DNA of 13,423 nt, taken from positions 1-13,423 of the forward strand of contig CALGLY010000224.1 in the NCBI GenBank assembly GCA_937959095.1, given 5' to 3'. Below are positions 2,618 through 13,423 of the stretch, piece by piece. The notes beneath the pieces are model-generated. The model worked only from the letters and a program-made list of their open reading frames with translations, was not told the origin of the DNA and made no database searches. A program made the translations under genes and the position numbers. The stretch's first letter is position 1; each line of letters opens with the position of its first letter. The DNA comes from an uncultured Saprospiraceae bacterium. Lineage in GTDB: Bacteria; Bacteroidota; Bacteroidia; Chitinophagales; Saprospiraceae.

Positions 2618-4297
2618 TTAGAATGTTTGAAATTCAGGGGAACTCAAAATAGTCGTGAATAGCCGCTCAAGCGCCACCGTTGCAGATGCAATAGAATCAG
2701 CCTCTCCTTGTTGAGCAAATTGCCATTCAAATTTCCAATTAACAGGACTCAAATCTCCTAATAATGCCTCTCTGAAATAATCGTAACGTTTGGTCGTATC
2801 ACCAGGGGTATCATAGCCTTCTGGTAATTCTGAAAAAGTAGTTTCTAAAATTTGTAATACAAGACTATCTGCATAAAGCTGATTTGTATATTCAGTAGCT
2901 ACGAAGTTATATATATCTGCTTGAAAACTAGTATCGCCGCTAATCAACATAGAGGCCGTATCCCGTATTCTTGTTCCACTTAATACCGATTCCATAAGCC
3001 TGTAGCGATTGGCAATAGAAGAAGAATCGAACCAGTTTTTACTAAAATCAGGTGCTTTGAAATAGCCCGGATAGCCTTCTACTGTTAAAGGGTACATTAG
3101 TTGTCCCATATCCTCTAAGTTATTACGACCTGTAATCGACCAAACTCTGAAAAAGAGATTTCTTGGATCGGAAAGAGGAGGTAATTTATCACCCATATTC
3201 AAATAACTCAAGGTTTGCAGCCATAGCATCATAGCGGACTTGAGCTTACCTCCTATGATTTCGTCGGTATTGCTACTATCATCTTCATCGTAAAAATGGG
3301 TGCTTTTAAGTAGATGCTTAATAGCTATTTCGACATTATAGTTATTCGCATGCATTTCTATTGCTAGTGGTTCTATAATATCCGATTCTATTTCGGCATC
3401 AATAGCATCACATACAAAAAAGCGGTACAGGCGACGGCAATAAGCGCGAGCTGTTTCCAACTGCCCGAATACCATATCTATAAAGTCGTTTAATTCTCGA
3501 TAATTATCGGCAGTATTTACTGCACCTGTAATTACTGTATTGTTGAAGGCAGCAGAGAAGGTTTTATTGCCAGTATCATGCTGAGCGTGTCTAGCGATGC
3601 CTGTTGTAAGTCCTGTCTCAGGGTCAAGATTATTTCTGTAATAATCATTTTGTCCTCCTGTGAAGCCCGTCAAAACTCTTGCAGCCTGTACAATGTCTGC
3701 TTCCGTATAATTCGTGTAATTAGTTGGTCCGATCTGCGGTCCTTTCAAAATCGTAAATAATTCTAGAAATTCTCGCGCATAATTTTCATTAGGGGCAGTT
3801 GCTAGATTGAAACGGTTATCCAAGAAAACGAGCATTTTGATATCCAGCGTCATTTTATACGCCAAATCACGAATACTCCCTTTAGCCATTTCTTGCAATA
3901 ATCGAAAATGATTGAAATTGACATTGCCATCGAGTCCAAGTCCCGTTACCCAAACTGTTCTATGGAAAACAGACAAACGCCCACGCATAGAAGTATCATG
4001 GAATAATTCATTAAGCCACCAACCTTCTGCGCCAAGGCGCTGCAGTGTACCTGATAATTCACCATGATTATTAGTGTTCGGTGTTTCTGTAATCCAAGCG
4101 AAATTATTAAGATAGGAAACAGGACCAGCAGGATGTGTTAAAGCAGGAAAGTTTAATAATTCATCTACTGCTTGATCTGCAGTTTTTAGCGCAAAAGCAT
4201 CAATTCGTGCTTTTGTAACCTGGTAGGTAGAACGACGAAGTAAATGGGCAGCAAGACGCGTTCCAAGTACCCCAGGCCGTTGAGCTAGAGAAGCCAT
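2618..4297 (-). CDS. DUF1800 family protein
   Basis: This 559-aa protein belongs to DUF1800, an uncharacterised family nearly always encoded next to DUF1501. Diagnostic stretches in order: HLLRRSTY (18-25), the LDIKMLVFLDNR stretch (151-162), NENYAREFLELFTI (170-183), YTEADIVQAARVLTGF (197-212), HDTGNKTF (240-247) and YCRRLYRFFV (286-295). All lie at the spacing usual for the family. The length is normal and I see no frameshift. No clear signal peptide follows the ATG at 4297; the domain starts within 18 residues. It precedes DUF1501 on the same strand and the two probably form a transcription unit, with the promoter in the gap 4298-4867, where I could not place boxes. Family certain; biochemical role unknown. 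Confidence 0.93.
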   Translation of the reverse strand: MASLAQRPGVLGTRLAAHLLRRSTYQVTKARIDAFALKTADQAVDELLNFPALTHPAGPVSYLNNFAWITETPNTNNHGELSGTLQRLGAEGWWLNELFHDTSMRGRLSVFHRTVWVTGLGLDGNVNFNHFRLLQEMAKGSIRDLAYKMTLDIKMLVFLDNRFNLATAPNENYAREFLELFTILKGPQIGPTNYTNYTEADIVQAARVLTGFTGGQNDYYRNNLDPETGLTTGIARHAQHDTGNKTFSAAFNNTVITGAVNTADNYRELNDFIDMVFGQLETARAYCRRLYRFFVCDAIDAEIESDIIEPLAIEMHANNYNVEIAIKHLLKSTHFYDEDDSSNTDEIIGGKLKSAMMLWLQTLSYLNMGDKLPPLSDPRNLFFRVWSITGRNNLEDMGQLMYPLTVEGYPGYFKAPDFSKNWFDSSSIANRYRLMESVLSGTRIRDTASMLISGDTSFQADIYNFVATEYTNQLYADSLVLQILETTFSELPEGYDTPGDTTKRYDYFREALLGDLSPVNWKFEWQFAQQGEADSIASATVALERLFTTILSSPEFQTF

Positions 4298-5553: not shown

Positions 5554-6426
5554 ATGAGAACGCTATTCTATACGCTTTTACTTTGTCTCTTATCCACCCT
5601 TGCTTATAGCCAAGATCCTTATTCGGAATATCAAGATGAAACTACACAAACCGATGGTGGTCGAGATACCCGCGCTTTAGCAGATAGTCTCCGTATGATT
5701 CGGCAAAGTGTGCAAGACATGGCAATGGGCGAAACCGACGCGCTTACCGAAGCCCGCATCAAGCGCAAACTCATACCCGCTCTCCAAGGTTTTTTGAATA
5801 CCGAATTTATGCGAAAATTCTACGACCTCAAGAAAGAGTCAGAGGGGTTGGTGGCCGCTTTTAAAGCAGAACAAATAGAATATCATCCACGCGATATACA
5901 AGAAGTGAAGACGGCTTATGAGCAAGTCCGTAGCCGATTTAATACCAAACTGGTAGCTATCACAGCCGATTTTAAAGACAAAAAGAAGCAAAAAATTATT
6001 CGTACTGCACCCGATATGTATTCAAGCGGCATGGGCTATGAGATGAATGAATTGAAGGATTTTTATGATAGCGTTTTCCGCCAAACATTGGCTGATGTAC
6101 GCGGCAATAATATAGATGGTGCCATTCCAATCGGACTGATTTTATCTATGATAGAACTAGCCAGTGAAGTGACCAACTATGTGATGACTTCCAACTACAA
6201 TACCAAACGCATGACGGAAGAATACCTTAAAGAGCATCTTATCGAACCTTTCGGATTTGCTGCTTGGGATGATATTTTAGCCAGCGAAGGCGATATTTAT
6301 AAAGAGCGAATAGAAGAAGAAATTCCTCCTGCTCTAAATGGTACATACAACGACCCTTTCTACGATTCCGACTCCACAAAACAAGATTCTACAGGCAATA
6401 ATCTAAAGCTAAAGAAAGGAAATTAA
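5554..6426 (+). CDS. Exported protein of unknown function (290 aa)
   Basis: I do not recognise this family. MRTLFYTLLLCLLSTLAYS is a clear signal peptide, with likely cleavage before Gln20, giving a periplasmic or secreted protein. The mature part is highly charged and looks almost all alpha-helical: helices around 38-58, 63-105, 113-150 (Lys-rich KDKKKQKIIR), 163-185, 190-212 (amphipathic or hydrophobic, IPIGLILSMIELASEVTNYV) and 218-255. The last 35 residues are Asp/Ser/Lys-rich and probably disordered. There are no cysteines in the mature chain and no catalytic motif I can name. It is first in the plus-strand cluster, behind a candidate promoter at 5433-5464, and its leader (AATGAAACAACAA, then ATGAGAAC) resembles that of the 11477 gene. 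Position suggests it serves the two downstream cysteine peptidases, for instance as partner, substrate or inhibitor, but the sequence itself does not show this. Confidence 0.8.
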   Translation: MRTLFYTLLLCLLSTLAYSQDPYSEYQDETTQTDGGRDTRALADSLRMIRQSVQDMAMGETDALTEARIKRKLIPALQGFLNTEFMRKFYDLKKESEGLVAAFKAEQIEYHPRDIQEVKTAYEQVRSRFNTKLVAITADFKDKKKQKIIRTAPDMYSSGMGYEMNELKDFYDSVFRQTLADVRGNNIDGAIPIGLILSMIELASEVTNYVMTSNYNTKRMTEEYLKEHLIEPFGFAAWDDILASEGDIYKERIEEEIPPALNGTYNDPFYDSDSTKQDSTGNNLKLKKGN

Positions 6427-6429
6427 TTT

Positions 6430-6544
6430 TTTGTATTGAACCATATAAGGCATATAAGGACATATAGATTATAGAGAAAATCGCTTTGCGATTTCTAAAA
6501 AAAAACTTAAATGCTCTTCTATGCCTTATATGGTTCAATACAAA
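6430..6544 (+). repeat. Large intergenic stem-loop 1
   Basis: A perfect 25-bp inverted repeat (arms 6430-6454 and 6520-6544) fills the gap between two genes. The left arm starts 3 nt after the stop codon at 6424-6426. The right arm ends inside the leader word before the next ATG. Inside lies a second hairpin, AAATCGC-TTT-GCGATTT (6478-6494). CATATAAGG is directly repeated at 6442-6450 and 6451-6459, with a partial third CATATAG at 6461-6467. No T-tract follows the right arm, so it is not a standard terminator. Confidence 0.85.
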
Positions 6545-6558
6545 CCAAATAGAAAACA
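6541..6558 (+). promoter_or_regulatory. Shared leader word before the C1 peptidase start
   Basis: CAAACCAAAT-A-GAAAACA runs directly into the ATG at 6559. The same word, with small changes, precedes the starts at 8273 and 11477. It fits an A-rich initiation region without Shine-Dalgarno pairing and fixes the start choice. Confidence 0.5.
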
Positions 6559-8094
6559 ATGCGCCGCTACACGCTATATCTGTTTTTGCTATGTATAAAT
6601 ATTGAAGCATCTGCTCAAATAGACTATTCCACAGGTATGGTCTTTGAGGATGAACGCTATGATACCATCAGCACGATTTCTAGTGAAATCGAAGGCTCAA
6701 AATTTCTACCACAAAAAGTAGATTTGACTCCTTACAGTCCTGCCATACGCAACCAAGGTGAAATATTTTCTTGTGTCGGTTGGTCGGTCGGCTATGCCGC
6801 TCTGACCATAGAACGCGCCATTCAAAACGGATGGACAGACCGCCAGCACATTACTGAAAATGCCAATTCTGCCCTTTTTATTTACAATCAAATCAAAAAA
6901 GGCAATTGTAAAAGTGGTTCACAAATCACGGCTGCCCTCGACCTACTCGAAAGCAAAGGCGATTGTCTTGCTAAAGCTTTCGATTTTGATATTAATGATT
7001 GTACGGCACAACCCGACGGACATCTACTAGCGCAAGCCAACGAATATCATATCAATAACTATGTAAAACTCTTTGAAAAACATGATGAAAATGCCCTCAA
7101 AATACAGAAGGTAAAGCGCGTACTTGCACATCAAAAGCCCGTGATAGTAGGCATGAAAGTGCTACGAAATTTCTATAAATTAGAAGGCGCGCGCTATTGG
7201 TGGCCCGACATCGGCGACCAAACCTTCGCAGGTGGCCACGCCATGTGTGTCATTGGCTACGATGATGAATTGAAAGCCTTCAAGCTGATGAATAGCTGGG
7301 GGAATAATTGGGGGAAAGGCGGTTATATTTGGATAAAGTATCAACACTTCGCGGATTATTGCAAATATGCTTATGCGGTATTTTTAGCCGAAGGCGAACC
7401 CATTGATTTTGATAAAGACCCTAAAACGACGATAAGCATAGCAGCCGATTTGAAACTAGAAAAGCCAAGCGAAGTACAAACGGTAGCAGCAGCAGCGCGA
7501 CCGTTGCGCGCGATGTCAGGAACATTCGGTTTTCAGAAATTCACAGGCTGGGGGAGCGATAGCAAACCCGTTTTTGAAGCGGCAGCGGTGCAACTAGATC
7601 GAAAGCATTATAATCTTACAGGTGGTGGTGCAATCGGAGATCGCTTTCAATTGGTTGCCGAAACGGGTTTTGATAATGGCTATGTCTATGTATTCAGCGT
7701 GGATGCGGTAGGAAAAACCGAAGTCCATTTCCCCAAGAAAGAAAGCTTGAATAAGAAATTTAAAGGCAAAAACGAGACAGCCCTTCTGCTATCGGGCGGC
7801 TCGAAATTGACGATTCCGAGCAAAAGCAAAGTGCTAAAACTAGCCGAAGTAGGCGATGATTATTTGATAACGCTTTTTTCAGAGAAACGTATCAAGCCAA
7901 AATACATCCGCTACCTCTGCTACGAATTGAGTGACAAACAAGACAACTTAGTACCGACTTTACATCAGCTTATCGGGAAGCACCTTATCCCAACGGCAGA
8001 TGTAACCTACGATATGGATAAAATGAAATTCACGGTCGATACACGCAGCAAAGGCAGTATTGTACCGATTGTTCTAAAAGTAAAAACAGAGTAA
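6559..8094 (+). CDS. Exported papain-like (C1) cysteine peptidase with DUF4384-like C-terminus
   Basis: This is a 511-aa exported cysteine peptidase. MRRYTLYLFLLCINIEASA is a signal peptide, with cleavage likely before Gln20. The papain-fold domain spans about 50-280 and has every catalytic residue: oxyanion Gln66 in RNQGE, nucleophile Cys72 in SCVGWS (six residues after the Gln, as in papain), His227 in GGHAMCVIGYDD and Asn245 in NSWGNNWGKGGYIWI. No separate propeptide is evident; only about 30 residues precede the domain. Residues about 361-440 (DRFQLVAE, GYVYVFSVD, VHFP, KLTIPS, LITLFS) match the pattern of DUF4384, a beta domain often attached to caspase-fold peptidases and protein kinases. 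The last 70 residues are unassigned. The gene lies between two large intergenic stem-loops and directly precedes the caspase-fold gene. Activity is well supported by the residues; the substrate is unknown. Confidence 0.9.
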   Translation: MRRYTLYLFLLCINIEASAQIDYSTGMVFEDERYDTISTISSEIEGSKFLPQKVDLTPYSPAIRNQGEIFSCVGWSVGYAALTIERAIQNGWTDRQHITENANSALFIYNQIKKGNCKSGSQITAALDLLESKGDCLAKAFDFDINDCTAQPDGHLLAQANEYHINNYVKLFEKHDENALKIQKVKRVLAHQKPVIVGMKVLRNFYKLEGARYWWPDIGDQTFAGGHAMCVIGYDDELKAFKLMNSWGNNWGKGGYIWIKYQHFADYCKYAYAVFLAEGEPIDFDKDPKTTISIAADLKLEKPSEVQTVAAAARPLRAMSGTFGFQKFTGWGSDSKPVFEAAAVQLDRKHYNLTGGGAIGDRFQLVAETGFDNGYVYVFSVDAVGKTEVHFPKKESLNKKFKGKNETALLLSGGSKLTIPSKSKVLKLAEVGDDYLITLFSEKRIKPKYIRYLCYELSDKQDNLVPTLHQLIGKHLIPTADVTYDMDKMKFTVDTRSKGSIVPIVLKVKTE

Positions 8095-8252
8095 CTATTC
8101 AGTAGAGCAGACCCGCCTGTCAGTCGGGCGGGGAATAGAGACCGTTTCACTGCGAGAATAGAGAAAATGATACTAAGACGTATAATTTAAAATCTCTGTT
8201 CCCCCGACGGCAGGCGGGTCTTAACAAAGTGGTCTCTATTCTGAGTAGTTAC
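8091..8252 (+). repeat. Large nested stem-loop 2 with alternative pairings
   Basis: Nested arms pair across the gap: 8091-8102 with 8241-8252 (GTAACTATTCAG, one wobble), AGACCCGCCTG 8109-8119 with 8211-8221, GTCGGG 8123-8128 with 8203-8208, and 8132-8141 with 8193-8202 (one mismatch). The outer stem includes the TAA stop of the C1 gene (8092-8094). A competing stem joins 8133-8143 (GAATAGAGACC) to 8231-8241 and cannot form together with the nested set. GAATAGAGA is also repeated at 8156-8164. The GC-rich GACCCGCCTG core differs from the surrounding composition and resembles palindromic intergenic repeats seen in Bacteroidota genomes. Confidence 0.75.
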
Positions 8253-8272
8253 AAACCAAATTGAAAACAAGC
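8252..8272 (+). promoter_or_regulatory. Shared leader word before the caspase-fold gene
   Basis: CAAACCAAATTGAAAACAA (8252-8270) plus GC precedes the ATG at 8273. A TTG at 8261 is in frame but lies inside this conserved leader, so 8273 is the better start: it puts MNRLIILFFF, a signal peptide, at the N-terminus. Confidence 0.5.
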
Positions 8273-11200
8273 ATGAACCGACTAATTATACTTTTCTTCT
8301 TTCCTCTTTTCGCCCTCGCGCAACCGACCGCAGTAGAGTGGGAAAACACCTTTGGCGAAGGATTAGATGATAAATTTCATCAAGTGATAGAAGCAACCAA
8401 CGGCTATATCGTAGCAGTGGGGGAGACCTCCGTGAGTAAACGTGGGAAACAAGGCTTACTCGTGATTTTAGATTATAGCACAGGCCGCCAAATTGTGCGC
8501 CAAACCTATGGCTATGCCAAAGACGATGTACTAAAAGATGTCGTGCAGACCGATGATGGACACTTTATCATTGCAGGTTTTTCCAATTCATCGGGTAAAG
8601 GCAAATCGGACGGTTGGCTCTTGAAAGTGGATATAAAAGGAAAGGTCGTTTGGCAAAAATATTATGGCACAGAAGAAGCCGATTGGCTGACTGCCCTGAC
8701 CTATGCACCTGATGGCACAGTACTCGCCGTAGGGAAGCGACGCAATAAGGATGTTTGGCTCTTGAAAGTAAAAGAGAAAGCCGTCGTATGGGAAAAAGCA
8801 TGGTCAGATAAGCCGCAATATGTGGATGTGCAAGGTGTGGCAAATGGCAAAAATGGCGAATTCGTACTTACAGGAAATACGGAAAAAGCGAATGGCACAG
8901 ATCGAGATGATATTTGGATGGTGCGTGTTGATGCTAACGGAACTACGTTAACAGAAAAGACCTTCGGCGAAAAAGGCTGGGAAGCTGCAACTGATGTGAT
9001 TGCTACACAAGATGGGGGCTATGCGATAGTGGGAAATACCATCACAAAAGGCAATGGGAAAATAGATATGTGGCTGCTGAAATTGAATGCAGGAGGTTTC
9101 AAACAATGGGACAAAGCCTATGGCGGTAGAGACGAAGATTTGGCGAACGCTGTAACACAAACCGCTGATGGCGGCTTCCTGATTACAGGACAAACCCTCT
9201 CGCATGTACGCGGCGCACGAGAGTATATTTCGCGCTCTATCAAGTTGAGTTCAGGCGGAGATTTGCAATGGGAAAAAGACTATGGCGGGAAGAAAAACGA
9301 TGATATAGGCAGCGCAATACTAGAAGTGCATGACGAAAGTATTCTTTTTGTTGGAAATACCGCTTCGCAAGGCAATGGTGGCATGGATGCTTGGGTCGTG
9401 AAATTTCAGAAAGAAAAACCTAAAGCCTTGATAAGTGGTGGTGGCAAAGGCACACATAATCTATTGAGTACACGTCTTTGGCTCAATACGGAAGATGGCG
9501 AATTGCAGCCGAACCAGAGTAGTTTTTTATCTTTTGAACTCTCTAATAAAGAAGACTTCGACTTCCCAAATGTATCGGTGAAAGTGGAGAATAAGAGTAG
9601 TGTAAATCAAGAAGTAGAATTTTGGAAAAGTACTTATATCGGAAACCTCAAAGCAGGCGAAACACGTATCGTGAAAATCCCAGTAGCTGCCGGACAAGTG
9701 CTAGAAACAAACGATAATCCTTTACAATTAAATGTCTTTTCGGAAGATGCGGAACTCGCTACTTTTGAAGGCGTTTTAAAGACAAAAAATCCGCGCCCTG
9801 CTACCCTCGTCATTCGTGATACAGATGTGACACGCGAAGGAAGCACCGAATACAGCCCTCGAACACTGACCGTAGAAATCGAAAATCAAGGAGACTATAC
9901 CGCTTCTGATGTAAAGGTGACCTTCACGACTCCGCAAGGCGTACAAGGCTTGGGTAGTGCATCTGTATTTGTAGGCGAAATCGGGCCACGCGTGACGCGT
10001 ACAGCTACTTTTCGCATACAAAAAACGGTACAATTTTCGGGAACAATGGCAAATATTCAATGCCTAGTAGAAGACCGAGAATTCAGTCGTACCCGCGAAA
10101 TGGTACAGGTCTCTTTCGATGAAATCATACAAGGCGGTGGCGATCAGTTTATCCTCTTCACACAGCCCAATGAAGCTCGTGTAAACGTAAAGCAACTCGA
10201 TTGGGATTTACCAGCCTTCCCGATAGAAGCGACCTTTGGTTCTTCGAGTCAATTACGTGCCGAATCGACGACCGTACTCATCAATGGAACACCGATTGAT
10301 AAAGGTAAAATGGATGAAGAAGACCTTTCGCCACCCGCAAAAAGTGGTAATTTGAATTATTACGCCTACGAAAACACCTTGCAACTAGACGAGGGTAAAA
10401 ACACAATCATAATACAAGTGCAAACCGCGCAGGGAACTATTCAGTCCAATGAAATCATTATCAACTATGTGCCGCGCAAGCCGAATTTGCATGTGCTTTC
10501 GATAGGTGTACCACATAAAGATTTGAAATATACAAGTAAAGACGCGCAAGATTTTGCCATGCAATTCCGAAATCAAGCAGGTGCAGGCAAAATCTACAAT
10601 CGCGTATTTATAAATGAATTGACGACTGCACCACAAACGCAATTTATTCCAGTTCGGGCTGCTTTTGCCGATTTAAAAAGCCGCTTCAATAGTGATATGA
10701 AGGATAATCGCATCACGCGAGAAGATGTATTGATTGTCTTCATTTCTTCGCATGGAAAAAGCGAAAACGATGAATTTAAAATACTGACTTCTGAATACGA
10801 ACAATTTCCTACGGCTGCTTTGATAGACTACAAACGCGATGTCTTGGAAATTATGAATCAGATTGATTGCAAGAAATTCGTATTCATAGATGCTTGTCAT
10901 AGTGGAGGTGCAGAAGGCGGCAAAGAAGCACTTACCACCAACGCTCGACGCGCGCTAGAGTTGATAAATTCGACCTATCCAGGCTTGAATGTACTAACGT
11001 CGAGTCAAGTCAATCAGCTTTCTTACGAGGATGAAGCGTGGCAAAATGGCGCATTTACCGAATCCATTTTAGATGCCTTCGCCAATCGCGATTGCTTGGA
11101 CAACAATGGAATGTTTAAAGCCGATGTGAATGGTGACGATGCAGTTGCGTTCGGAGAATTGTATGAATTTTTGAAACGTCGCGTACCAAGTTTGGTATTC

Positions 11201-11281
11201 GATAAGAAGAATAAACCCCAAATGCCTAGCCGTACCGAAACAGAGTTAGGTGATGATATTCCAATCTTTATTCGGTATTAA
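8273..11281 (+). CDS. Exported beta-propeller / CARDB-like / caspase-fold (C14) protein
   Basis: This 1002-aa exported multidomain protein has signal peptide MNRLIILFFFPLFALA, cleaved before Gln17. About 20-380 hold seven repeats of roughly 50 residues, each with a DGG-like turn, a V-G-N/E-T strand, a D-x-W-L/M-x-K/R strand and a closing W-x-K-x-Y/F-G strand (for example TQDGGYAIVGNT, DMWLLKLNAGG). This predicts a seven-bladed propeller whose first strand VEWENTFG closes the ring. About 400-505 and 505-616 are CARDB/Ig-like; about 624-733 is a further Ig-like unit. The caspase fold spans 737-1002: SIGV strand (about 743-746), His827 in FISSHGKSEND and Cys875 in FIDACHSGG, the usual dyad. The tail (KPQMPSRTETELGDDIPIF) is standard for bacterial C14 proteins. 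It is separated from its neighbours by large stem-loops and sits next to a second cysteine peptidase. The propeller and Ig domains probably bind a partner; cleavage specificity is not readable. Confidence 0.88.
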   Translation: MNRLIILFFFPLFALAQPTAVEWENTFGEGLDDKFHQVIEATNGYIVAVGETSVSKRGKQGLLVILDYSTGRQIVRQTYGYAKDDVLKDVVQTDDGHFIIAGFSNSSGKGKSDGWLLKVDIKGKVVWQKYYGTEEADWLTALTYAPDGTVLAVGKRRNKDVWLLKVKEKAVVWEKAWSDKPQYVDVQGVANGKNGEFVLTGNTEKANGTDRDDIWMVRVDANGTTLTEKTFGEKGWEAATDVIATQDGGYAIVGNTITKGNGKIDMWLLKLNAGGFKQWDKAYGGRDEDLANAVTQTADGGFLITGQTLSHVRGAREYISRSIKLSSGGDLQWEKDYGGKKNDDIGSAILEVHDESILFVGNTASQGNGGMDAWVVKFQKEKPKALISGGGKGTHNLLSTRLWLNTEDGELQPNQSSFLSFELSNKEDFDFPNVSVKVENKSSVNQEVEFWKSTYIGNLKAGETRIVKIPVAAGQVLETNDNPLQLNVFSEDAELATFEGVLKTKNPRPATLVIRDTDVTREGSTEYSPRTLTVEIENQGDYTASDVKVTFTTPQGVQGLGSASVFVGEIGPRVTRTATFRIQKTVQFSGTMANIQCLVEDREFSRTREMVQVSFDEIIQGGGDQFILFTQPNEARVNVKQLDWDLPAFPIEATFGSSSQLRAESTTVLINGTPIDKGKMDEEDLSPPAKSGNLNYYAYENTLQLDEGKNTIIIQVQTAQGTIQSNEIIINYVPRKPNLHVLSIGVPHKDLKYTSKDAQDFAMQFRNQAGAGKIYNRVFINELTTAPQTQFIPVRAAFADLKSRFNSDMKDNRITREDVLIVFISSHGKSENDEFKILTSEYEQFPTAALIDYKRDVLEIMNQIDCKKFVFIDACHSGGAEGGKEALTTNARRALELINSTYPGLNVLTSSQVNQLSYEDEAWQNGAFTESILDAFANRDCLDNNGMFKADVNGDDAVAFGELYEFLKRRVPSLVFDKKNKPQMPSRTETELGDDIPIFIRY

Positions 11282-11295
11282 TTTCTTGGGTTATA

Positions 11296-11447
11296 AGATG
11301 TGAGACTTTTAGATGTGAGATAAGAGATGTATCGCGATTTGTGTTTTAAAGTTTATAAAATCTAGAAAAGATGGCAGGCATTTTAAAATGCCTGCCATCT
11401 GGATTGCTTGGAGCGTCTCATATCTCACATCTAAAAGTCTCACATCT
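11296..11447 (+). repeat. Large intergenic stem-loop 3
   Basis: Arms 11296-11327 and 11416-11447 form a 32-bp inverted repeat with one A-A mismatch (11323 and 11420). Each arm holds a direct repeat of AGATGTGAGA at a 15-bp period (left copies 11296-11305 and 11311-11320; right copies 11423-11432 and 11438-11447 as the complement). The left arm starts 14 nt after the caspase gene's stop. The right arm ends 7 nt before the CAAACCAAAT leader of the next gene. A 32-nt palindrome lies in the loop. There is no T-tract after the right arm. Confidence 0.85.
11369..11400. repeat. Perfect 32-nt palindrome inside stem-loop 3
   Basis: AGATGGCAGGCATTTT (11369-11384) is followed at once by its exact complement (11385-11400), with no spacer. 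It can fold as a compact hairpin at the tip of the larger stem. No T-tract follows on the plus strand. Its GGCAGGC core echoes the CAGGCGGG of stem-loop 2. Confidence 0.8.
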
Positions 11448-11454
11448 CACGATT

Positions 11455-11476
11455 CAAACCAAATGAAAACAAGACC
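11455..11476 (+). promoter_or_regulatory. Shared leader word before the FG-GAP gene
   Basis: CAAACCAAATGAAAACAAG (11455-11473) plus ACC precedes the ATG at 11477. An ATG inside the leader at 11463 opens only a five-codon frame and stops at the TGA that overlaps the true start (ATGA, 11477-11480). It could be a reinitiation arrangement or chance. Confidence 0.5.
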
Positions 11477-13423
11477 ATGAGAACAAACACTATACTTATT
11501 TGCTTGTTGCTAGGCGTACAAGTCGCTTTTGCACAAAATACCTGCTTCCTGCAACAGGAAAGCATTGATGATATTGCCGCGTTCACTCATTTTACTTCCC
11601 AAAACGAATTTGCCGACCTCGATAATGATGGCGACCTCGACTATATCGTAGCACATGGGCCAGATAATATCTTCTTGGATATTTATACAAATAAAGAGAA
11701 TGGCAGCAGCTTTAGCCAATCAGAAAGCTTCGATTTTTCGGGTAATGCGACGGCTGCCGCTTTTGTGGTAGGCGATGTGACTAACAATGGCTTCGTGGAT
11801 ATTATAGATGTCGATTTAAACACGAATCAAAGGCCTGAAATTCGCCTTCGTGCCAATCAGGATGGGCGTGGCTTTGAAACAATTTCGCTTTATATCAATG
11901 ATACAGGCACCGAACAACTCACCACCGCACCGCGTCTCGTAGATTTTGATAATGATGGAGACTTAGATATTACGATAGGGGTGTCGCCCTTTGAAGCTGG
12001 AGGTTTTCAGATGCGCGTGATGGCTTTAGAGAATCAAGGCGGTGGACAGTTTATAGAACGCACCCTCCTAGAAACAGTCGAAGATTTCGTGGAAACCATT
12101 ATTCAAGTCGAATGGGCAGACATGAATAATGATGGCTCAGAAGATTTACTAGTGAGTTATAATTTTAATGGGGATAACAATGAAAATCTCCGTTTTCTAC
12201 GCTTATACTTGAACGATGGCGAAGGAAACCTAGAATTCCATTCCGAACCAATTGCTCAAAACCAAACCCTACTAATTCAGCTTGGCGATGTAGACAATGA
12301 TGGTGACATAGACCTTATTACAACAAGTACGACAGATGGACCGGGCGTTTATTTTAATACCAATCTTCGGTTTTCGCCTTTGCTAATAGAGTCGAACCTC
12401 ATTCCGTTTCGCCTACGCGTAGCGGATGTTAATCATGATGGCTTTTTGGATTTAGTAATCGTTGGGTTATTTCGAGATGGCTTTGCTTTGAGAATGGAAG
12501 TCATTGGCAATTTTGGAGGGACAAGCTACTTCCAAATTGCAGAAGAGAGGTTGGTCTATGATATGCTTTTAGGGGATATAAATCGCGATAATAAGCTAGA
12601 TATAGTGTTTACGTACTTTGAACAACAACAAAATATTATTCGATATTCCTTTTCTGATTTAAGCCAAAACGGATGTATCAATGAAGCCCCCGCTAAGCCA
12701 GACCGATTGGTGTCGGATCCGAATGGTAGAGATGTGATTTTGAGTTGGGACATGACCGAAGATCGCCAGCAAGCGAGTCCATCACTCAGTTATAACATAT
12801 ATATGTATCGGGTAGAAGATGGCAAAATCATCATTGCACCTGATTCGGATTTGGAAACTGGTGAGCGTCGCGTCGTTGATTTTGGTCGCCAAGGACCGCA
12901 CAACAAATGGATTTATCGCAACCTAGAAAGTGGGACATATCGCTGGCGGGTACAAGCCGTAGATCATCATTATCAAGGCGGTGGATGGAGTGCCGAAGAT
13001 GAATTTACGATAAGTGTTTGCCCAGAATTTGCCTTCAATAGGGTAGTGGAAGGCGGTTATAGTTCGGATACTAAATTTGGGGATTATAATAATGATGGTG
13101 CTTTGGATGCCTTCATTGTGCATGTAGAAGGTGGTGAATTTGGCACAAGTTCGCATTTACATTTACTCGAAAATAAGCAAGGCACTTTCCCAACAGCAGA
13201 CCCTTGGGACGAAGAAGTACTTAGTGCAGAATTTATAGACCTCGGGGATGCGGATAATGATGGCGATTTGGATGTAGTAATTATAAACGATGTAAGCTTA
13301 TCGGTCTTAGAAAATCAAGGAGGAAATTACACTCGAAAAGAAATTTCCAATTCTATAGAAGGTTGGACAAATTCCAACGCTCAATTTATAGACTTCGACA
13401 ATGATGGCGATTTAGACATTACC
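11477..13423 (+). CDS. FG-GAP/VCBS repeat protein with Fn3-like domain, 5' part
   Basis: I translated 649 codons without a stop; the frame runs off the right edge. MRTNTILICLLLGVQVAFA is a signal peptide, cleaved before Gln20. Calcium-binding D-x-D/N-x-D-G-x-x-D loops, as in integrin alpha and VCBS repeats, begin near residues 47 (DLDNDGDLD), 100, 156, 215, 271, 317 and 367. Seven evenly spaced copies predict one complete seven-bladed propeller. The copy at 100 (DVTNNGFVD) and that at 367 (DINRDNKLD) are degenerate. An Fn3-like domain follows at about 402-511 (ILSWD, SYNIYMYRV, YRWRVQAVD), then a second series at 536, 591 and 639. Cys23, Cys400 and Cys515 sit at domain borders. Such proteins are cell-surface or secreted adhesins or binding proteins, often type IX secreted; any sorting domain would lie past the window. 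It is last of the visible cluster and shares the leader word. Confidence 0.88.
   Translation, partial: MRTNTILICLLLGVQVAFAQNTCFLQQESIDDIAAFTHFTSQNEFADLDNDGDLDYIVAHGPDNIFLDIYTNKENGSSFSQSESFDFSGNATAAAFVVGDVTNNGFVDIIDVDLNTNQRPEIRLRANQDGRGFETISLYINDTGTEQLTTAPRLVDFDNDGDLDITIGVSPFEAGGFQMRVMALENQGGGQFIERTLLETVEDFVETIIQVEWADMNNDGSEDLLVSYNFNGDNNENLRFLRLYLNDGEGNLEFHSEPIAQNQTLLIQLGDVDNDGDIDLITTSTTDGPGVYFNTNLRFSPLLIESNLIPFRLRVADVNHDGFLDLVIVGLFRDGFALRMEVIGNFGGTSYFQIAEERLVYDMLLGDINRDNKLDIVFTYFEQQQNIIRYSFSDLSQNGCINEAPAKPDRLVSDPNGRDVILSWDMTEDRQQASPSLSYNIYMYRVEDGKIIIAPDSDLETGERRVVDFGRQGPHNKWIYRNLESGTYRWRVQAVDHHYQGGGWSAEDEFTISVCPEFAFNRVVEGGYSSDTKFGDYNNDGALDAFIVHVEGGEFGTSSHLHLLENKQGTFPTADPWDEEVLSAEFIDLGDADNDGDLDVVIINDVSLSVLENQGGNYTRKEISNSIEGWTNSNAQFIDFDNDGDLDIT

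Follow-up and report, generated by a model that had tools for sequence, protein, structure and literature searches.

Three gene junctions of an uncultured Saprospiraceae bacterium are filled by stem-loops from three different dispersed repeat families

Short, self-complementary repeats that lie between genes have been described in several bacterial groups. One example is BrickBuilt, a miniature inverted-repeat transposable element (MITE) of the Bacteroidota member Porphyromonas gingivalis, which is intergenic, carries inverted ends and internal short direct repeats, is predicted to form long stem-loops and has no transposase (PMC4596501). Another is the Correia repeat enclosed element of Neisseria, a short inverted-repeat element that lies beside genes and forms a stem, for which RNase III binding and cleavage have been reported (PMC2649163). 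Arrays of the short word TAACTGA are also intergenic, many of them near starts, and are patchily distributed across phyla, with hosts among the Beggiatoaceae, the Cyanobacteria and some Bacteroidetes (PMC4679880). Repetitive extragenic palindromic (REP) sequences and bacterial interspersed mosaic elements (BIMEs), known together with REP-associated tyrosine transposases (RAYTs), are palindromic, intergenic and present in high copy number (PMC2817692, PMC3733652), and a study of 40 bacterial genomes found an excess of stable intergenic stem-loops toward the 3′ side of genes, some of them belonging to repeat families (PMC1590033). Among insertion sequences (ISs), ISDge4 of Deinococcus geothermalis (IS66 family, ISBst12 group) is bounded by GTAACTGCTCAGCA and GTGACTACTCAGCA and generated a repeat of 8 bp (PMC12898284); IS66 elements with repeats of this length are tabulated in PMC3281130. 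Similar layouts recur in the stretch analysed here (the window), a whole contig of 13,423 nucleotides (CALGLY010000224.1) from the draft genome of an uncultured Saprospiraceae bacterium (GCA_937959095.1; 4.45 Mb, 857 contigs, 74% complete; the source genome), in which three neighboring gene junctions each hold a large stem-loop. These stem-loops are probably independent insertions from three repeat families, each short, self-complementary and non-autonomous and at least one representing a small transposon remnant.

Each described system also departs from what is found here. BrickBuilt is a single family of 19 copies with a unit of 23 nt, whereas here many families built of 6-9-nt words exist side by side and replace each other at one and the same junction. 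The Correia element is likewise one family, and it is likened by layout. The TAACTGA arrays consist of direct repeats of one word, with one indirect repeat in BOGUAY, whereas the words at this locus are several and mostly form inverted pairs. Unlike in REP/RAYT systems, no junction family was seen beside either of the two Y1 transposase genes of the source genome in the flanking sequence that was read. The abstract of PMC1590033 does not mention a swap of families at orthologous junctions, which is seen here. A literature search that covered few subscription journals found no paper describing the word families or containing any of three family A strings.

The cluster comprises, all on the + strand and called as simple open reading frames (ORFs), a gene for an unassigned 290-amino-acid protein (5554-6426), a papain-like protease gene (6559-8094), a caspase-domain protein gene ending at 11281 and an FG-GAP repeat protein gene starting at 11477. 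An earlier reading made from the letters alone (the sequence-only reading) described a large stem-loop of unrelated sequence at each of the three junctions, and arms, folds and shuffling confirm it. The arms of junction 1 (6430-6466/6508-6544) are 37 nt long and 89% complementary, and those of junction 3 (11296-11327/11416-11447) are 32 nt long and 97% complementary. The outer stem of junction 2 is 8091-8102/8241-8252; because a GACCCGCC..-type palindrome breaks up its arms, the repeat finder gives only a piece of it, and the full 8091-8252 stem-loop is evident in the predicted RNA fold. Folding energies of junctions 1, 2 and 3 are -47.1, -74.0 and -88.1 kcal/mol (shuffle z -10.9, -8.3 and -12.9), and no shuffle folds as well (0/200 for each). 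The inner palindromes and direct repeats that had been pointed out are also present, namely the palindrome at 11369-11400 and the words CATATAAGG, GAATAGAGA and AGATGTGAGA inside the stem-loops. The same holds for the places said to be free of such an element: the gap before 5554 has no comparable hairpin (inverted-repeat score 16, p=0.89), nor has its counterpart in the sister species G002 introduced below, and a score of 34 with a span up to 260 is reached nowhere in the contig except by the stems of junctions 1 and 3, so none lies between the DUF1800 and DUF1501 genes. An Rfam search gave five matches at E<=1, every one far under its gathering score.

Each junction stem is a copy of a different multi-copy family of the source genome. 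BLAST pieces in this genome (E<=10, with self, both arms and both strands included) number 104 for junction 1 (family A, CATATAAGG words), 67 for junction 2 (family B, AGAGACC/AGAGAAT words) and 88, 33 of them at E<1e-3, for junction 3 (family C, GATGTGAGA words). An 18-mer of family A has 43 exact copies there and its reversed control none, and an alignment of 21 family A copies reveals an inner AATCGC..GCGATT loop common to most of the long ones. Family B copies at unrelated loci are 83-89% identical over 82-105 nt. Elsewhere in the genome the copies sit between other genes and span from near the stop to near the next start. The earlier suggestion of one repeat family with a preferred insertion site therefore stands in so far as the repeats are dispersed and mostly intergenic, but the families are three and not one.

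The plan seen at the three junctions is general in a sample of 101 contigs (602,577 bases) of the source genome, in which a banded search at a score of at least 34 finds 112 hairpins, compared with 1 in one dinucleotide shuffle. Although intergenic DNA makes up 14.8% of the bases, 102 of the 112 hairpins are mainly intergenic, and hairpins occupy 13.2% of intergenic bases; many have arms made of 6-9-nt words. Among junctions of 55-600 nt between genes longer than 400 nt, 52 of 180 hold a hairpin. Tandem gaps with a single hairpin (n=36) place it a median of 13 nt after the stop and 25 nt before the start; the median distances are 16 and 13 nt in convergent gaps and 56 and 57 nt in divergent ones. 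A placement from stop to leader that is this general fits the removal of insertions that strike stops, leaders or promoters. In gaps of at least 40 nt, hairpins are found in 42/169 tandem, 12/49 divergent and 17/45 convergent cases.

Placement directly after stop codons and the peak rate at convergent gaps would also suit bidirectional transcription terminators, an explanation that is nonetheless highly improbable. In a terminator scan, none of the three junction stems is followed by a T-tract, in agreement with the sequence-only reading, and family A stems mostly have T residues to their left and A residues to their right, opposite to what an intrinsic terminator shows. At a convergent pair in C42, moreover, both species retain a separate stem that resembles a terminator and has a T run, although their hairpins differ (by eye).

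The CAAACCAAAT leader at which the stems were said to end is real in the window but shows no link to stems in the rest of the sample. Of 24 AAACCAAAT copies, two lie within 25 nt after a called hairpin, both in the window, whose third copy adjoins junction 2 and was overlooked by the hairpin caller. As a candidate insertion target site, AAACCAAAT was rejected, since it has no association with hairpins elsewhere in the sample.

Turnover is seen in a comparison with G002, a genome of the same genus (Saprospiraceae MAG-138, JAHDCQ; its C453 equals JAHDCQ010000434.1). Its first three cluster proteins share 80-87% amino-acid identity with those of the source genome and its FG-GAP protein 64%, and the gene order is kept, with the cluster divided over two contigs. 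The hairpin in each of its three junctions always belongs to another family than in the source genome: GTTGAGTTGTGG words fill junction 1, and family A fills junctions 2 and 3. The G002 protease ortholog, which has no family B element, runs one codon longer. In G017, a more distant genome, junction 2 spans no more than ~20 nt and has no hairpin, and junction 3 measures ~480 nt. Relatives with the same gene order and no stem, part of the outcome that the sequence-only reading had set against its own proposal, thus exist at junction 2 of G017 and at other junctions, but G002 keeps hairpins at all three.

Occupancy was compared between the source genome and G002 at conserved junctions. The syntenic set is non-random: queries with 36 junctions that have a hairpin and 36 that lack one gave 11 and 9 syntenic ones, and the remainder come from their neighbors and from the G002 contigs examined, so the set is small and partly picked on hairpin status. 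The inverted-repeat test uses, out of 44 pairs, the 33 that come from the source-genome sample, at a cut-off of p<=0.01. The word-family test adds two pairs from L008 to these 33, with eight duplicates and one N-run pair (L083) excluded; its seeds were chosen from copies already seen, so it is not blind, and 9 of 301 coding windows are also positive at its threshold. By word family, 16 junctions are occupied in both species, 7 in the source genome only, 5 in G002 only and 7 in neither (odds ratio 3.2, p=0.15; without the window 13/7/5/6, p=0.45). By inverted repeat, the corresponding counts are 16/6/4/7 (odds ratio 4.7, p=0.065; without the window 13/6/4/6, p=0.24). A strict score finds G002 positive at 4 of 11 junctions that are positive in the source genome and at 4 of 9 that are negative. 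The 16 junctions that are word-positive in both species hold a different family in 11 cases and the same family in five, and some junctions occupied in one species are empty in the other (gaps of 127 vs 12 nt and 173 vs 8 nt). The hairpin most plainly inherited by both species, at C37, has 34 shared 9-mers, compared with 0-3 at the other 15 junctions that are doubly positive by inverted repeat. Turnover is thus fast and occupancy high, and retention of hairpins by selection is possible.

These data bear on the alternative that selection favors a strong hairpin, whatever its sequence, between co-transcribed genes as a functional junction device, with a role in mRNA processing, 3′-end protection or insulation of the next start, so that sequences can be exchanged as long as position and fold are retained. 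The very stable predicted folds, the median distance of 13 nt from the stop in the 36 tandem gaps, the three G002 hairpins and the odds ratio of 4.7 all speak for such a device. The correlation is not significant, however, and it weakens without the window; the strict score does not separate positive from negative junctions; tandem and divergent gaps are occupied at about the same rate, though divergent genes are not co-transcribed; orthologous gaps can be empty; and the arms of family A do not co-vary (see below). A device of this sort is therefore unlikely, and the claim that a structural RNA is kept by position and structure is not supported, given the empty junctions, the lack of a significant correlation, the family A arms and a leader that is uncoupled from stems outside the window. 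The data favor mobile, tolerated repeats over a conserved RNA device, and the stems probably have no required function.

Movement is best documented for family B, whose ends are sharp (GTAACTATTYAG...CTRAATAGTTAC). In ten copies the flanking 8-mers match at 79% of positions, compared with 30% in mismatched pairings (z 6.2, p=5e-5), and among lengths 3-12 the match peaks at 8, flush with the element ends. Nine of these copies were taken from 16 listed, chosen by eye on the element interior, and the tenth, L014, was added with its flanks in view. Restricting the set to the nine, or to eight by dropping the window copy, gives 78% vs 29% (p=5e-5 for the nine), and 11 copies, with L014 and L010 added, give 73% vs 31%. 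At junction 2, GTAACTATTCAG at 8091 and CTGAGTAGTTAC ending at 8252 resemble the ISDge4 terminus GTAACTGCTCAGCA by eye. Because family B ends like ISDge4 and has 8-bp flanking repeats, junction 2 is most likely an IS66-type MITE, as judged from sequence. Family B shares with ISDge4 the terminus GTAACT..TCAG and the 8-bp direct repeats; unlike ISDge4, the ten copies used measure 96-323 nt, which leaves no room for a transposase gene, and arms with AGAG-type words turn nearly the whole element into a hairpin (PMC12898284).

Several results weigh against insertion as the general explanation. Single copies of family B match less well than the pooled set: the two flanks agree at 6/8 positions in the window, 3/8 at L006 and 4/8 at L273, the last with a 7-bp flush repeat. 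In a loose set of 38 places, mostly chance end pairs, the 8-bp peak is not among the best, and the signal is not distinct when hairpin ends are used in place of element termini (cluster 7). A search for an autonomous partner with family-like ends on both sides, which covered 13.5% of the source genome plus loci, found none; it returned seven loose listings at four distinct places, with paired ends 0.9-2.6 kb apart, in which the ORFs were left unexamined, and no genome-wide search for IS66 transposases was made. Transposition is, moreover, backed for family B only. The 3/3 retention of hairpins in G002 also counts here, though it is unremarkable because G002 is positive at 18 of 31 non-window junctions, and the positive lean of both odds ratios leaves room for selection on hairpin presence.

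For family A and a further family, D, no duplication of fixed length emerges: over all offsets and lengths 4-10, the best z is 3.1 for A (22 copies) and 2.1 for D (30 places). Family C copies, which fall in the mixed cluster 0, have no sharply defined outer ends and reach a best duplication z of 3.3. No convincing duplication is present in 12 hairpin clusters, the best being cluster 3 with an uncorrected z of 4.4 over ~2000 combinations. A link to REP/RAYT systems (REP doublets forming hairpins, REPINs) was also considered and rejected: the flanks of the two Y1_Tnp genes of the source genome carry other palindromes (by eye) and not the junction families.

The arms of family A argue for copying of the whole asymmetric element and against compensatory selection, since they have no excess of self-match: the match within copies is below that between copies (14.2 vs 19.0). 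This test uses cores of at least 80 nt, with inner arms from 19 of 24 copies and flanks from 23 of 24 and a false match (L273) removed; the copies are unoriented, so the cross comparison mixes both arm types. Among predicted pairs, 1 of 11 has a change on both sides. The compensatory changes by which the sequence-only reading hoped to recognize a structural RNA are thus missing as a rule from family A, although one copy, L075, does have compensated arms. The outer flanks of family B have a weak arm self-match (p=0.03 over 26 nt, 0.26 for the distal part; 12 copies).

Compensated arms would also be expected if the hairpins grew in situ, their words expanding by slippage and becoming palindromes through hairpin-templated replication errors, with no mobility involved. 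Arms made of 6-9-nt words and a gain of units in copies L084 and L256 accord with such growth. It is already strained by the long asymmetric interiors that unrelated loci share in families A and B, the target duplications of family B and the family A arms that match no better within a copy than between copies, which leaves it quite improbable.

Insertion would account for the shared plan in a simple way. Each family is itself a hairpin, so every copy would show the same plan, and selection may clear copies that fall in genes or on starts, stops and leaders, leaving survivors that span from the stop to the next leader. The MITE at junction 2 was probably moved by an IS66-family (ISBst12-type) transposase, and its GTAAC end provides the stop codon of the upstream gene; families A and C probably spread by copying. 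In a co-transcribed mRNA the stems would be strong RNA structures and could affect processing as a side effect.

Family A is not confined to this genus. Its 22-mer occurs in 33 stretches from 20 genomes of a named genome collection, with titles from Saprospiraceae, Flavobacterium, Sediminibacterium, another Chitinophagaceae, Nubsella, Fluviicola, Bacteroidales and Draconibacterium, all of them Bacteroidota. In those genomes the matches often have the same hairpin layout between genes (by eye); one carrier is Flavobacterium franklandianum (L312), a cultivable species. Its 18-mer is missing, however, from two of four same-genus genomes searched, from 56 other relatives and from 391 of 395 genomes of the phylum, and family A has no match in phage, plasmid or viral collections or contigs. 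This patchiness suggests horizontal spread or repeated loss. A bolder and unlikely extension is that the Bacteroidota harbor a class of intergenic word hairpins, with many families that have arms of 6-9-nt words and spread between distant members without target duplication. A junction would then tend to keep a strong hairpin while its family is replaced, and the parasites, interchangeable to the host, would serve it as stems at mRNA boundaries.

What looked like a regulatory pattern becomes a case study in how bacterial gene gaps are filled, in which unrelated families can occupy the same junction in two sister species. If occupancy is selected and family identity is not, mobile repeats would serve as interchangeable parts; if occupancy is not selected, the locus is a clean warning against taking kept structure with changed sequence as a sign of functional RNA. 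The 8-bp duplications of family B point to something concrete to look for, an IS66-type transposase, and how families A and C move becomes a defined question. Features of the three junctions are collected in Table 1.

Table 1. Features at the three gene junctions of the window
Feature	Position	Strand	Sequence	Remark
Junction 1, family A hairpin	6430-6544		TTGAACCATATAAGGCATATAAGGACATATA ... inner AATCGCTTTGCGATT ... TATGCCTTATATGGTTCAA	
Leader of papain-like protease gene	6541-6558	+	CAAACCAAAT	similar in G002
Left candidate 8-bp target duplication	8083-8090	+	AAAACAGA	6/8 match with 8253-8260
Junction 2, family B, most likely a MITE	8091-8252		termini GTAACTATTCAG / CTGAGTAGTTAC	
Stop codon of protease gene	8092-8094	+		formed by GTAAC terminus of family B element
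REP-like palindrome	8110-8133		GACCCGCCTGTCAGTCGGGCGGGG	within left arm of junction 2; from sequence
Partner REP-like stretch	8202-8220		CCCCGACGGCAGGCGGGTC	right part of junction 2; from sequence and fold
Right candidate 8-bp target duplication	8253-8260	+	AAACCAAA	within shared leader
Junction 3, family C hairpin	11296-11447		AGATGTGAGACTTTTAGATGTGAGATAAGAGA ... TCTCATATCTCACATCTAAAAGTCTCACATCT	
Perfect inner palindrome	11369-11400		AGATGGCAGGCATTTTAAAATGCCTGCCATCT	nested in junction 3; similar copies at C536, C139, C516
Leader of FG-GAP gene	11455-11476	+	CAAACCAAAT	kept in part in G002

Some further observations concern these junctions and related hairpins. At junction 1, the conserved flanks TTTTTGTA and TACAA(A)CC are the same in the window (6427-6437, 6538-6558) and in G002 (L221, ~8012-8030 and 8100-8124), with unrelated elements between them; these flanks are mutually complementary, and insertion at the center of a small palindrome is possible. 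Junction 3 of G002 has ~300 nt of other DNA between its family A arms. This element, TTTCGACCTTA.TTCTTTTAGTGGAAAAAG..., lies at ~800-1095 of G002 C453 (L222) and at 1878-2424 of C71 in the source genome (pair L255), and is a further dispersed repeat nested in a hairpin. Upstream of a distant caspase-domain homolog in G026, L224 8350-8844 contains long inverted arrays of GAACTGAAGAATCGAGG and CAATCGAACC, a much larger version of the same idea. At C37, the GTATTAG-word hairpin (3236-3375) is kept in G002 (L229), and the palindrome CTGCCTGTCGGCAGACAGG occurs only in the right arm of the source-genome copy; this extra insert is GC-rich and of the same kind as 8110-8133. L033, L039, L043 and L046 contain the start-proximal arm of family C (TCTCACATCT words) without its partner, just before the start codon (by eye), and these single arms resemble single-orientation heptamer arrays upstream of starts.

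Clustering of the hairpins from the source genome and G002 yields 25 clusters of at least two members, 13 of them with short-word arms (by eye); others are longer MITE-like families of 110-170 nt. Cluster 3 corresponds to a dispersed ~120-nt element, GTTCTCTGACAAATCCCGTGACGAAG..., with 21 listed places in the source genome at 78-87% identity; its loci include L267 18607-18730, C57 2618-2731 and C96 7984-8097. MITE-like elements of ~160 nt with AGGCAA or AGGGA.. ends lie at C63 2481-2640, C57 4750-4910, C62 5132-5292 and C88 513-674, the last of which is missing from the orthologous G002 gap (L244). Within the window itself, the stem CACGACTACAC..GTGTAGTCGTG at 644-685 resembles a terminator, with a T run after it (+ strand); it lies between the first ORF, which ends at 414, and the DUF1501 gene.

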